A stretch of DNA of 37,043 nt from Candidatus Benthicola marisminoris (GTDB taxonomy: Bacteria; Gemmatimonadota; Gemmatimonadetes; Palauibacterales; Palauibacteraceae), in the NCBI GenBank assembly GCA_023554335.1, contig JAMJQR010000103.1, positions 1-37,043 on the forward strand. Direction: 5' to 3'. Positions 1,246 to 4,543 of this stretch are shown piece by piece. Numbering within the stretch: position 1 is the stretch's first letter; every line of letters starts with the position of its first letter. The notes under the pieces were generated by a model, which saw only the letters and a program-made list of their open reading frames with translations, had not been told where the DNA came from and did not search any database. The position numbers and the translations under genes were made by a program.

Positions 1246-1872
1246 GTGTGTTTTCGGTTACTCTGGGCGCGTGCGAGCGGTGACCGATTGAGCGATTCGG
1301 GGGAGGTGTTGGAGCCGGGAGCGCGGGCCAGCCGGTCCGTATACCGCGGCAAGATCCTGGACGTGAGAGAGGACACCGTCCGGTTTCCGAACGGAAGCGA
1401 GGGGGTCCTCGAGATCGTTCGGCACCGTGGCGCGGCCGCGGTCCTGCCGTTGTACAGGCCGGCGGAGTGCGCCGAGGGCACGGGCCCGGACGTGATCCTG
1501 CTGCGGCAGTATCGGTATGCGGTGGGCGGCACGCTCTGGGAAGCGCCGGCAGGCAAGCTGGACGAGGGGGAGCCCCCGGACGTCTGTGCAGCCCGGGAGC
1601 TGGAGGAGGAGGCGGGGGTCTCGGCCAGCCGGTTGATTCCGCTGACCACCCTCCTCACCACGCCCGGTTTCTCGGACGAGCGAATCCACCTCTTCCTGGC
1701 CGTAGGCCTGGAAGAAGGGCGGCAGGCGCTGGAGGAGCACGAGATCATCGAGTGCCGCCGAATGCCGCTGGCCACTGCCGTGGACATGGTTCTGGCCGGT
1801 GACATCGTGGACGGAAAGACCGTCTGTCTCGTGATGATGGCCGCCGCATCGCCGGGGTTGTGGGACGGTTGA
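1246..1872 (+). CDS. Nudix hydrolase, ADP-ribose pyrophosphatase type
   Basis: A 208-residue Nudix protein. The full Nudix box GX5EX7REUXEEXGU is intact at residues 103-125 (G103, E109, then RELEEEAG), which supplies the Mg2+-binding glutamates. The N-terminal part, with SVYRGKILDVREDTV and EIVRHRGAAAVLPL, matches the NudF/ADP-ribose pyrophosphatase branch, which hydrolyses ADP-ribose and related nucleoside diphosphate sugars to AMP and a sugar phosphate in the cytoplasm. The GTG start at 1246 follows GAGG with a 5-base gap and lies 6 bases after the M16 stop, suggesting co-transcription. TTG at 1288 and TTG at 1309 (behind GGGGAGG) are alternative starts and would remove a poorly conserved leader. 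The exact substrate cannot be read from sequence. Confidence 0.9.
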   Translation: MCFRLLWARASGDRLSDSGEVLEPGARASRSVYRGKILDVREDTVRFPNGSEGVLEIVRHRGAAAVLPLYRPAECAEGTGPDVILLRQYRYAVGGTLWEAPAGKLDEGEPPDVCAARELEEEAGVSASRLIPLTTLLTTPGFSDERIHLFLAVGLEEGRQALEEHEIIECRRMPLATAVDMVLAGDIVDGKTVCLVMMAAASPGLWDG

Positions 1873-1945
1873 GCTTTGCGGGAACGGTCCGAACGGCAAC
1901 AATCGCGGACCGGCAGGTGTCAGAAGGACAGGGGAAGAGGTCTGG

Positions 1946-1966
1946 CCCGGTGATGACTGCACCGGG
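1946..1966. repeat. GC-rich inverted repeat in the sigma-factor leader
   Basis: A perfect 7-base stem, CCCGGTG (1946-1952) and CACCGGG (1960-1966), with a 7-base loop. It sits in the 202-base gap between the Nudix gene and the sigma factor gene. There is no T-run after it, so it is not a classical intrinsic terminator; it could be an operator, an mRNA hairpin or chance in GC-rich DNA. I found no convincing -35/-10 pair in this gap, although a break in transcription is likely here. Confidence 0.35.
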
Positions 1967-2074
1967 ACGCGCATACATGCGACAGCGGAGCGACACACGG
2001 AGAGGCCTTTGCACGGCCACGCCCGTCGCACGGTCGCTCCCGGGCGGGGATGCCGGGGAACGCGGGAGAGAGAC

Positions 2075-2728
2075 ATGATCGACGCAATGGAGTCCAGCCG
2101 TCCCGAGAGGGTCGAGCCACAGCTCGATGAGAGGGCGCTGCGGGCGAACCTCCGCGAGCTCGACGATGCGGCGCTGGTGGCCGAGTACCTGGATGGTCGC
2201 AGGCACGCCTTCCATGAGCTGGCGGAGCGCTACCATACGCGCCTCTTGAACTTCATCTATAGGACGATCGGCGATCGCGATCGGGCGGAAGACCTCGTCC
2301 AGGAGACTTTCGTTCGCGTCTATCGCCACCTGCACCGGTTCGATCCGACCAAGAAGTTCTCGACGTGGATCTACACGATCGCGAGCAACCTGGCGAAGAA
2401 CGAGCTTCGGAACCGCTCCCGCAATCCCCTGGTGCTGTTCCAGGCGATCAAGAAGAACTGGGAGGCGGATCACCGTCCTCTCCAGTGGGAGGACAGCTCT
2501 TACTCGCCGGACGACCTGTACCGCAAGCGACACTTGCGGGAGCAGGTGGAGAAGGCGGTCGCCGAGCTTCCCGAGCATCACCGGGTCGTGTTCGTGCTCC
2601 GGGAGATGGAAGGGAAGACCTACGAGGAGATTTCCGAGATCACCGGCGTGACCCTCGGAACGGTCAAGTCGAGGCTGAACCGGGCGCGGAACAAGTTCGC
2701 CCTGATCGTTGGTCCAATGCTCGAGTAG
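2075..2728 (+). CDS. ECF-family RNA polymerase sigma factor
   Basis: A 217-residue sigma-70 family protein with only regions 2 and 4, the ECF (group 4) layout. Region 2 spans about residues 46-113 and contains the core-binding and -10-melting segment DRAEDLVQETFVRVY and then FSTWIYTIASNLAKNELR. Region 4 spans about 154-207, with the helix-turn-helix YEEISEITGVTLGTVKSRLNRA that reads the -35 element. ATG 2075 was chosen because it follows the purine-rich GGGAGAG and removes a non-conserved upstream extension starting at 2009. The next gene is a zinc-finger anti-sigma factor, the usual partner, but it lies 176 bases downstream, beyond a hairpin terminator. The factor directs RNA polymerase to a stress or envelope regulon; which signal it answers is not visible. 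Confidence 0.95.
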   Translation: MIDAMESSRPERVEPQLDERALRANLRELDDAALVAEYLDGRRHAFHELAERYHTRLLNFIYRTIGDRDRAEDLVQETFVRVYRHLHRFDPTKKFSTWIYTIASNLAKNELRNRSRNPLVLFQAIKKNWEADHRPLQWEDSSYSPDDLYRKRHLREQVEKAVAELPEHHRVVFVLREMEGKTYEEISEITGVTLGTVKSRLNRARNKFALIVGPMLE

Positions 2729-2758
2729 TCACGACGGTGCATCTGGATCCATTGCGTG

Positions 2759-2784
2759 GAAAGGCGGCCTCCGGGTCGCCTTTC
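2759..2784 (+). terminator. Hairpin terminator after the sigma factor gene
   Basis: A perfect 8-base inverted repeat, GAAAGGCG (2759-2766) and CGCCTTTC (2777-2784), with a 10-base loop, 30 bases after the sigma-factor stop and followed by a short TT. The 3' arm itself carries TTTC, giving a weak U-tract. It probably stops or attenuates transcription between the sigma factor and its anti-sigma factor. Confidence 0.55.
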
Positions 2785-2803
2785 TTGCATCCGGGAACTC
2801 CGG

Positions 2804-2829
2804 GGAACAACCATTCGACACGCGCGTAA
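2804..2829 (+). promoter_or_regulatory. Candidate ECF-type promoter for the anti-sigma gene
   Basis: GGAAC at 2804-2808 and CGTAA at 2825-2829 are separated by 16 bases, matching the general ECF pattern (GGAAC, 16-17 bases, CGTA/CGTC). A second GGGAAC lies just upstream, at 2793-2798. The element lies between the terminator-like hairpin and the anti-sigma start at 2905, so a transcript from here would carry a leader of about 70 bases that includes a small ACGGCC/GGCCGT hairpin (2850-2867). This fits autoregulation by the adjacent sigma factor, but only by pattern. Confidence 0.4.
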
Positions 2830-2904
2830 TAATCGCACGCTGGAGGCAGACGGCCCGCATCGGCCGTTGGGGCGGTTCACACTAACGGAAGTCTGGCACT
2901 CGCG

Positions 2905-3468
2905 ATGTCGTGCGATCAGTTCATCGAACGGTACACGGACTTCAGGGACGGTCTCCTGGATTCCGAAACTCGGGCAGAAGTCGAAGGACATCTGGCCGAC
3001 TGTGCGTGTTGCGAGCGTTATCACCGCGTCATGCAGCGAGGCCTCGAGCTCCTTTCCGACATCCCCTCCGCCGAGAGTTCCGACGATTTCATGCCGCGCC
3101 TGAGGCATCGCCTGTACAATGTCGATTGTGGCGTGACGGAGGGGCGGCGGAGCTTCGGTGGCAGCGCGGCGCTGGTAGGGGTGGCGGCCGTCGGATTGCT
3201 GGCCCTCTTCTGGCTCCCGTTCGCGGCGAGCGTGCCCCTGGAGATGGAGCTGGCGGCGGTTTCGGTGCAGCCACCTCCTCCGGGATCCGCGGACCTTCCG
3301 TCGCTCTTCCGCAGCGGTCCGTTCGTCAGTACCCTGCGGGTCGAGGGCGATTCGTATACGGACGGATATCTCACGGAGTTCGAGTGGCCGCCAGCTTCAG
3401 CAGTACACACCGCCGTAGCCATCGAAGCTTCCTACCTTCGGTCGGAGCCCGCACACCTCAACCGCTGA
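2905..3468 (+). CDS. Zinc-finger anti-sigma factor, single-pass membrane protein
   Basis: A 187-residue protein with an N-terminal anti-sigma (ZAS) domain: C3, then H29-x3-C33-x2-C36, the zinc-binding HxxxCxxC signature. A hydrophobic segment at about 87-108 is a single transmembrane helix, followed by an extracytoplasmic tail of about 78 residues with a PPPP stretch and no recognised domain. The known role of such proteins is to hold a cognate ECF sigma factor at the membrane until a signal triggers release; the sigma factor at 2075-2728 is the obvious partner. ATG 2905 has only a weak GGAAG about 13 bases upstream, so translation may be modest. The expression link to the sigma factor is unusual because a terminator-like hairpin separates the two genes. 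Confidence 0.85.
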   Translation: MSCDQFIERYTDFRDGLLDSETRAEVEGHLADCACCERYHRVMQRGLELLSDIPSAESSDDFMPRLRHRLYNVDCGVTEGRRSFGGSAALVGVAAVGLLALFWLPFAASVPLEMELAAVSVQPPPPGSADLPSLFRSGPFVSTLRVEGDSYTDGYLTEFEWPPASAVHTAVAIEASYLRSEPAHLNR

Positions 3469-3514
3469 GTCCGACGATGCGAATGGACCGCGGATTTCGG
3501 GCGCGAGGACTCGC

Positions 3515-4543
3515 TTGAGTCTCGCCGCCGATCGTCGTCTGGCCGCTCTCGTGGAGCGCGGAGAGGTGGACGGTGTCTTCTTCTTCCACGGGAACGCCGC
3601 CCGTCTGCGGGACGATGCGGCCCGCACGCTCGTGGAGGCGGCAATCGATCCGGCGACCCGCGATTTCAACCTGGATACCTATCGTGCGGCGGAGGTCAGC
3701 CCAGAGGCGCTCGCTGCATCTCTCTCCATGCCGCCCGTGATGGCCCCCCGCCGGGTCGTGGCGTTGTTCGGGGCCGAGAGGCTGACGCCGACCGGCTGCG
3801 GAGTGGTGGAGAAGATCCTCGAAAAGACGCCGCCTGACCTCACCCTCGTGGTGACCGCGACGGTGCCCAAAGGCTCACGGAAGGCGTTTTATCGAAAGCT
3901 GAAGGACGGCGCGACATCCCTCGAGTGGTCGGCTCCCCGGGACGCGGAGATTCCGGGTTGGCTCATGGAACGGGCCCGCGACCGGCATGGCGTGGTGCTG
4001 GAGGCGCGCGCGGCCGAGGCGCTGGCGGAGGCGGTGGGAGCGGATCTCGGCCTGCTCGAGGCGGAGCTCGACAAGCTGACCTCCGTCGGAAACGCTGAGA
4101 CGATCACGGTTGAAGAGATCGCCGCGCTCGTCCCGAACGTCCGCGAGGTGAACCGCTGGGCATGGCTCGACTCGGTCGCGGAGCGCGATTACCGCGGCGC
4201 CCTCTCGCAGTTGCCCGCCCTCCTCGCCGGACCCGACTCGAGCGCCGTCGGCCTCATCAACGCGATGGCGGACCACCACTTGCTGCTGGGAATCGCAGCC
4301 GAGGGGGGAGCGAGTCTGCTCGAGCGGACCCTGAGCGAGGTGGGCAAGCCCTACCTCAAATTCAAGGTGCGGACGTTCGTGGGTCAGGCCCGGAGCTGGA
4401 CCGGGGAGGAGATCGAGCAGGCACTTCGGTGGATACGCAAGGCGGATGCGCGTTCGAAGACGACGGGGGGCGGACGCGACCGGGCGGTCCTGGAAGAGCT
4501 GCTTCTCGGCTTGCAGGCGCTCAAGGCGGGGGCCGCCCGATGA
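3515..4543 (+). CDS. holA: DNA polymerase III subunit delta
   Basis: A 342-residue protein, close to the length of E. coli HolA (343). It has the features of the delta clamp-loader subunit: an N-terminal FFFHGNAARLRDDAARTL segment, a middle VVALFGAERLT strand, VVTATVPKGSRKAFYRKLK, then a lid region (VGADLGLLEAELDKL) and a helical C-terminal collar (WIRKADARSKTTG, LLLGLQAL). Delta opens the beta sliding clamp within the clamp-loader complex. The start is TTG at 3515; no in-frame ATG lies near it, and the conserved N-terminus begins directly after. The stop overlaps the next start as ATGA (4540-4543), so translation of the two is probably coupled. Confidence 0.93.
   Translation: MSLAADRRLAALVERGEVDGVFFFHGNAARLRDDAARTLVEAAIDPATRDFNLDTYRAAEVSPEALAASLSMPPVMAPRRVVALFGAERLTPTGCGVVEKILEKTPPDLTLVVTATVPKGSRKAFYRKLKDGATSLEWSAPRDAEIPGWLMERARDRHGVVLEARAAEALAEAVGADLGLLEAELDKLTSVGNAETITVEEIAALVPNVREVNRWAWLDSVAERDYRGALSQLPALLAGPDSSAVGLINAMADHHLLLGIAAEGGASLLERTLSEVGKPYLKFKVRTFVGQARSWTGEEIEQALRWIRKADARSKTTGGGRDRAVLEELLLGLQALKAGAAR

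Follow-up and report, generated by a model that had tools for sequence, protein, structure and literature searches.

Sigma-dependent transcription of a sigma factor's own anti-sigma gene is known from FliA-FlgM, although the flagellar sigma28 is not an ECF factor and FlgM is secreted. Among ECF systems, the sigH-rshA locus of C. glutamicum possesses a SigH-controlled promoter that drives the anti-sigma gene only, and its sigma gene is read from sigma-independent promoters, i.e. the same feedback wiring as proposed below (PMC3489674). In E. coli, promoter P3 of rseA yields a sigmaE-dependent rseA transcript without rpoE, likewise in an envelope-stress system, and a sigma54 input is named for the rpoE operon promoters (PMC8595263). 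HrpL of P. syringae is a further ECF factor whose gene stands under sigma54 and is subject to negative autogenous control (PMC5263251). The classical hallmarks of ECF systems are co-transcription with the anti-sigma gene and positive autoregulation; known pairs and sigma genes under autoregulation are also the basis on which target promoters of ECF factors are predicted (PMC8103513).

The window, i.e. the whole analyzed stretch of 37,043 nucleotides, is contig C270 of a Gemmatimonadota MAG (2.57 Mb, 280 contigs, 88% complete; "own genome" in the following). The product of its sigma gene has the sigma2 and sigma4 domains only, joined by a short linker (Pfam: Sigma70_r2 at residues 49-116, Sigma70_r4_2 at 155-207), which places it among the ECF (group IV) factors. 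Its five best solved relatives include E. coli RpoE (1or7) and B. subtilis SigW (5wuq); it scores below the NCBIfam equivalogue cut-offs for RpoE (118.9 vs 236.15 bits) and SigW (131 vs 209 and 114.9 vs 243.1 bits). The downstream gene encodes a predicted class I (ASDI) anti-sigma factor, whose zf-HC2 domain reaches 25.2 bits at a Pfam cut-off of 22.2 and whose zinc motif reads C3...H29xxxC33xxC36. Judging from its sequence, this protein likely crosses the membrane once and exposes its C-terminal part outside the cytoplasm; TIGR03988 and NF052375 match it weakly, under their cut-offs. The gap of 176 nt between the two genes accommodates a hairpin of 12 pairs, the element GGAAC-N16-CGTAA and a predicted leader of about 69 nt (Table 1). 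The gene holA lies 3' of the anti-sigma gene. A NUDIX hydrolase gene (window positions 1246-1872) is located 5' of the sigma gene and, as judged by eye, likewise in many relatives.

Table 1. Features of the sigma/anti-sigma locus, in window coordinates.
Feature	Position	Strand	Remarks
Putative sigma-gene promoter CAAC-N16-GTGTC-NNA	1897..1924	+	kept in relatives' sigma upstreams
ECF sigma factor gene	2075..2728	+	ATG 2075, stop 2726-2728, 217 aa
Terminator-like hairpin	2758..2785	+	12 pairs, TCCG loop, weak T-run
-35 box GGAAC of predicted anti-sigma promoter	2804..2808	+	
-10 box CGTAA of predicted anti-sigma promoter	2825..2829	+	spacer 16
Predicted 5' leader	2836..2904	+	about 69 nt, small hairpin 2850-2867
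Anti-sigma factor gene	2905..3468	+	ATG 2905, stop ends 3468, 187 aa, Pfam zf-HC2

The sequence-only reading had proposed GGAAC-N16-CGTAA at 2804-2829 as an ECF-like promoter, and boxes, positions and spacing are exactly as it claimed; from the usual spacing, the anti-sigma transcript is predicted to start at about 2835-2837. GGAAC-N15..17-CGTAA matches the window once (expectation 0.05; a match arises in 5 of 100 shuffles) and the whole own genome seven times, as compared to one match of the reversed pattern. Because of these seven matches, the boxes alone are no proof. Conservation of the boxes among relatives had been named as one of two points on which the proposal should stand or fall. 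A homologue of the sigma factor is found in all 60 genomes searched, the own one included, with a merely distant best match in G004, G042, G051 and G057; by title, the relatives of the locus come nearly all from Gemmatimonadota MAGs. The dataset consists of 140 loci, i.e. 60 (the window's included) plus the best 80 of 303. Removal of 25 exact duplicates left 115 unique loci, near-identical ones being kept; an adjacent anti-sigma gene was recognized in 103 of them, and the other 12 lie outside the gap count. The outcome is clear-cut: GGAAC-N15..17-NGTA is present in 95 of the 103 gaps, with a spacer of N16 or N17 in every match, and in at least one genome of 22 of the 23 labelled genera with an adjacent anti-sigma gene. 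The genus count includes L009 and L020, whose anti-sigma gene was missed by the script; both, as well as L178 and L222, carry the motif although they belong to the 12 loci outside the gap count. For the first 48 gaps, 40 of which contain the motif, dinucleotide shuffling (200 rounds) gives 0.3 on average and never more than 3; the shuffles ignore relatedness among loci, for which the genus count partly corrects. Even the columns not forced by the pattern are skewed in the 95 loci (C after GGAAC in 72%, A as the third base after GTA in 75%). Their motif logo reads GGAACC...GTANNA, which resembles RpoE and SigW promoters, and GTA lies a median of 62 nt from the anti-sigma start. The sigma gene itself is preceded by this motif at only one of the 115 loci, which is not the window. 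Because 95 of 103 gaps stand against this one sigma upstream, we regard 2804-2829, on comparative grounds, as a conserved ECF-type promoter of the anti-sigma gene that is not common to the sigma gene; single motif matches among the loci may be due to chance.

Of the eight gaps lacking the motif, six come from genus g6, where they measure 39-46 nt; the other two are those of L062 and L059. In L059 (G050, the only genome of its family in the comparison set), the motif lies upstream of the sigma gene, and a putative anti-sigma gene follows 31 nt after it; this swap ties the motif to the sigma/anti-sigma pair, albeit in one genome only. In L061, the motif match sits within a hairpin. The g6 genomes without a separate promoter (L022, L028, L029, L038, L042, L045) offer a naturally occurring contrast to the proposed feedback layout. 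Furthermore, behind the paralogous sigma genes of L063, L065 and L066, the place of an anti-sigma gene is occupied by a similar gene of coiled-coil appearance (by eye). Four MAGs titled Gammaproteobacteria also contain this locus (L166, L169, L170, L174); they closely resemble Gemmatimonadetes records, e.g. L171, and are probably mislabelled.

The structure behind the sigma gene had been described as a terminator-like hairpin of 8 bases at 2759-2784. The hairpin is real, but its size was understated: GGAAAGGCGGCC-TCCG-GGTCGCCTTTCT forms 12 consecutive pairs (G-U counted) between 2758 and 2785. The surrounding segment 2729-2803 folds with z = -3.8, and none of 200 shuffles is equally stable. 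A simple terminator scan of positions 1500-4500 predicts no site, and the T-run is weak (TTTCTTG), for which reason partial read-through is possible in the window. In 53 of the 95 motif loci, a stem that spans 10 bp or more and contains no fewer than 7 GC pairs lies between sigma stop and promoter (1.9 expected from shuffles); the other 42 are without a long stem. A looser definition (at least 7 bp, 5 GC pairs) is matched in 65 of 100 gaps (26.2 expected); 37 of these 65 have at least three T around the stem's end, a count without shuffle baseline. In several relatives, e.g. L008, L013 and L016, textbook terminators with T-runs are present. We infer that the sigma transcript stops at least partly at 2758-2785. 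As to the anti-sigma transcript, a leader of about 70 bases with a small hairpin had also been proposed; this hairpin exists (ACGGCC/GGCCGT at 2850-2867), but nothing supports its importance. The leader is no more stable than its shuffles (z = -0.14), an alignment of five genus members reveals no clean covariation, and the Rfam search of the leader returned no family (one match of 21.7 bits vs a gathering threshold of 218), so that we rejected a regulatory RNA.

What drives the sigma gene, a point on which the sequence-only reading is silent, apparently differs between lineages. The putative promoter type of the window, CAAC-N16-GTGTC-NNA, has 41 matches, as compared to seven reversed ones, in ten genomes of genera g1, g2 and g4; it precedes the sigma gene in nine of them, the window included, and the tenth (G004) is without a clear sigma orthologue. 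The genomes for this search and for the TGTGAC search below were chosen after the elements had already been seen there. Genes for close homologues of a second ECF sigma factor (L306:1596-2135, 180 aa) have a slightly looser form, CAAC-N15..17-NKGTC, in front of them in 25 of 29 cases (0.56 expected). This second factor hence seems to activate its own gene and might also act on the sigma gene of the window, which suggests an ECF cascade; because no close homologue of it was found in the own genome (88% complete; best 47%), we put forward this particular driver as a hypothesis. In the window's genus, CAAC-N16-GTGTC is probably read by another ECF factor. Boxes of this type also precede TonB-like and lipoprotein genes (by eye). 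In the 14 searched genomes of the window's family f1, TGTGAC-N17-CGTCYTA has 15 matches, which by eye precede this sigma gene (9), a different ECF-like gene (5; genomes of L265, L266, L272, L275 and L262) and a gene for an exported protein (1).

Outside f1, a sigma54-like element (scored as TGGCACG-N4-TTGCW with GG and GC invariant and at least 9 of 12 matches) lies upstream of the sigma gene in 62 of the remaining 81 loci (5.4 expected), a set that contains the loci from the best 80 of 303, which carry no family label, as well as a paralogue from f1 (L051). In f1 the element is at chance level (3 of 34 loci vs 2.5 expected), and the window's sigma gene has none (best 8 of 12); f2 loci reach only 7-8 on this score. 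Loss of rpoN as the cause of the promoter swap was rejected, as 58 of 60 genomes, the window's included, possess rpoN. Genus g15 (G044, G053; L057, L058) possesses the sigma54-like element, and no anti-sigma gene was detected behind its sigma gene.

More challenging is the delimitation of other targets. In the genome scan for the same motif, put forward as a check by the sequence-only reading, the strict form GGAAC-N16-VGTANNA is not enriched genome-wide in 60 genomes (373 matches vs 540 with frame-matched N13 and 780 reversed). In the own genome, the NGTANNA form likewise amounts to five matches vs 14 reversed; only the count in the genus with the CGTA form leans the other way (118 vs 74). 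Because there is no genome-wide enrichment, the regulon is either small or looser than the pattern; regulon sizing by strict motif counting was rejected on these figures, which speak against a large regulon. Upstream of htrA/degP homologues, the motif occurs at 12 of 30 loci (0.34 expected; the sample is 30 of 59 listed matches). These are seven of seven in family f2, four of four in f4 and one of one in f9, as compared to none of nine in f1 and none of nine elsewhere; the best htrA homologue of the own genome is also without it. Two f4 loci, L232 and L233, are not independent in this test because the query came from a picked match, and without them 10 of 28 remain. The htrA upstreams hint at an RpoE-like regulon. 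The motif is also present at htrA of genus g15. Among 20 other matches (L103-L122), 10 are followed at a distance of 34-130 nt by an ORF whose start resembles a signal peptide, a bias that is only suggestive because these matches were picked by eye, among those listed, for promoter-like sequence and similarity between genomes. Genes behind the motif encode SLT/LysM transglycosylase, TPR, DUF3108 and TolB_N proteins (Pfam). In the window's genus they include a small lipoprotein of G000 with an apparent orthologue in G003 (L070, L140; by eye), for which no Pfam family was found. Some similar matches in the genus are coding (by eye), and others precede pyk, sucC, ileS, rho and the methylmalonyl-CoA mutase gene (names by eye), for which an ECF role is doubtful. 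Taken as a whole, the predicted targets look like an envelope-stress regulon that is small and varies between lineages.

That two functionless short boxes merely happen to stand at a plausible spacing would agree with a whole-genome pattern frequency at or below background; given their presence in nearly all gaps and labelled genera, where close to zero is expected, we consider such a coincidence extremely improbable. A real promoter raises the question of its reader. The recognition helix of the window's sigma factor, GTVKSRLNRARN, aligns with GTVRSRIFRARE of E. coli RpoE, such that K198, S199 and R203 correspond to R171, S172 and R176, which in RpoE contact GGAAC according to the account of -35 contacts from RpoE and SigW structures in PMC6713349. 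The -35-contacting residues of RpoE and SigW are kept or conservatively changed in the window's factor, and K198, S199 and R203 agree with an RpoE-like specificity without being discriminating. GGAAC-contacting residues are common among ECF factors, and for this reason another one could read the box; the anti-sigma factor would then report a different stress and cross-inhibit this sigma factor. The own genome would offer candidates, since it yields 14 matches to the sigma factor, itself counted, and in one case (L124, contig C139) a GGAAC-N16-CGTA site is followed, after about 0.8 kb and an intervening ORF, by an ECF-like gene. However, the motif accompanies the sigma/anti-sigma pair in the examined loci, the swap in L059 puts the same motif upstream of this very sigma gene, and the own genome's 22 GGAAC-N16-CGTA sites, except those of C139 and the window, have no gene similar to this or the second ECF factor within stretches of 1.7-3 kb. 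We therefore rate a foreign reader as rather unlikely; the adjacent upstream sigma factor is most likely the one that reads 2804-2829.

A transcript comprising both genes could still be the main source of the anti-sigma factor, with a hairpin that terminates weakly or else serves in processing or in setting the stoichiometry, and with the internal promoter as a booster. Such boosters have been reported for rshA of C. glutamicum and for P3 of E. coli rseA, and the weak T-run of the window, the 42 motif loci without long stem and the promoterless short gaps of g6 point in the same direction. The textbook terminators of some relatives and the excess of stems over expectation, pronounced under the stricter definition, oppose it, and we hold this option to be possible, if somewhat doubtful. 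Hairpin and own promoter, as read from the compared loci, argue against co-transcription as the main route to the anti-sigma factor. The idea that the sigma factor could drive its inhibitor separately is supported, and fits better than a shared sigma-dependent promoter because the sigma gene is without the motif.

With reasonable confidence, we hence propose that 2804-2829 is an ECF-type promoter for the anti-sigma gene alone, that the upstream sigma factor is its likeliest reader, and that a separate sigma promoter and a stop at the hairpin complete a negative loop. According to this model, an input promoter (sigma54-like in many relatives outside f1, or dependent on another ECF factor) would give rise to the sigma factor, whose transcript would end, at least in part, at 2758-2785. 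Free sigma factor would fire GGAAC...GTA and thereby produce its own inhibitor, probably membrane-bound, as well as, in some lineages, envelope proteins (htrA, lytic transglycosylase, TolB, lipoproteins); the inhibitor would then recapture the sigma factor. The promoter, the hairpin and the absence of this motif from sigma upstreams emerge from comparison of the loci; which sigma factor occupies the box, how efficiently the hairpin terminates, and the dynamics are parts that the model presumes. The net wiring would be a negative loop without positive autoregulation of the sigma gene, and this second classical hallmark indeed appears to be missing, with the motif at one of 115 sigma upstreams, on the presumption that the sigma factor reads GGAAC-N16-NGTA. 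We are evenly divided on a wider generalization, in which one widespread envelope-stress ECF factor of Gemmatimonadota forms a pure negative-feedback module, its gene being fired by sigma54 as a regulator-gated input and terminated; in f1, promoters of other, self-activating ECF factors would have taken over this input, giving a cascade from ECF to ECF to anti-sigma, with the output loop kept.

Should this hold, an ECF factor of this type would be missed by prediction from autoregulated sigma genes, because its signature precedes the inhibitor gene. The layout offers a testable case, across many genera, of a sigma factor with negative and apparently no positive self-control, in which one output loop is kept while the input promoter is exchanged between lineages, and it provides a candidate RpoE-like regulon for Gemmatimonadota. 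Among the matches listed in openly licensed literature, neither this arrangement nor any envelope-stress sigma circuit of Gemmatimonadota is described. The sequence of 2804-2829 fits an anti-sigma-only promoter of the sigH-rshA type. The C. glutamicum promoter differs by its position inside the sigH coding region; sigH and rshA are not effectively separated, because both are also co-transcribed from four sigH promoters, which are of the housekeeping type, neither sigma54 nor ECF (PMC3489674). P3 of E. coli rseA likewise lies within rpoE and has a leader of 228 nt, and rpoE, besides being transcribed together with rseA, has a sigmaE-dependent promoter of its own (PMC8595263). For HrpL, the feedback is ascribed to promoter occlusion, and the authors see no evidence for an anti-sigma factor (PMC5263251). 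Sigma-dependent promoters that serve an anti-sigma gene only are thus already known from rseA P3 and rshA, and the Gemmatimonadota layout is a variant of them.
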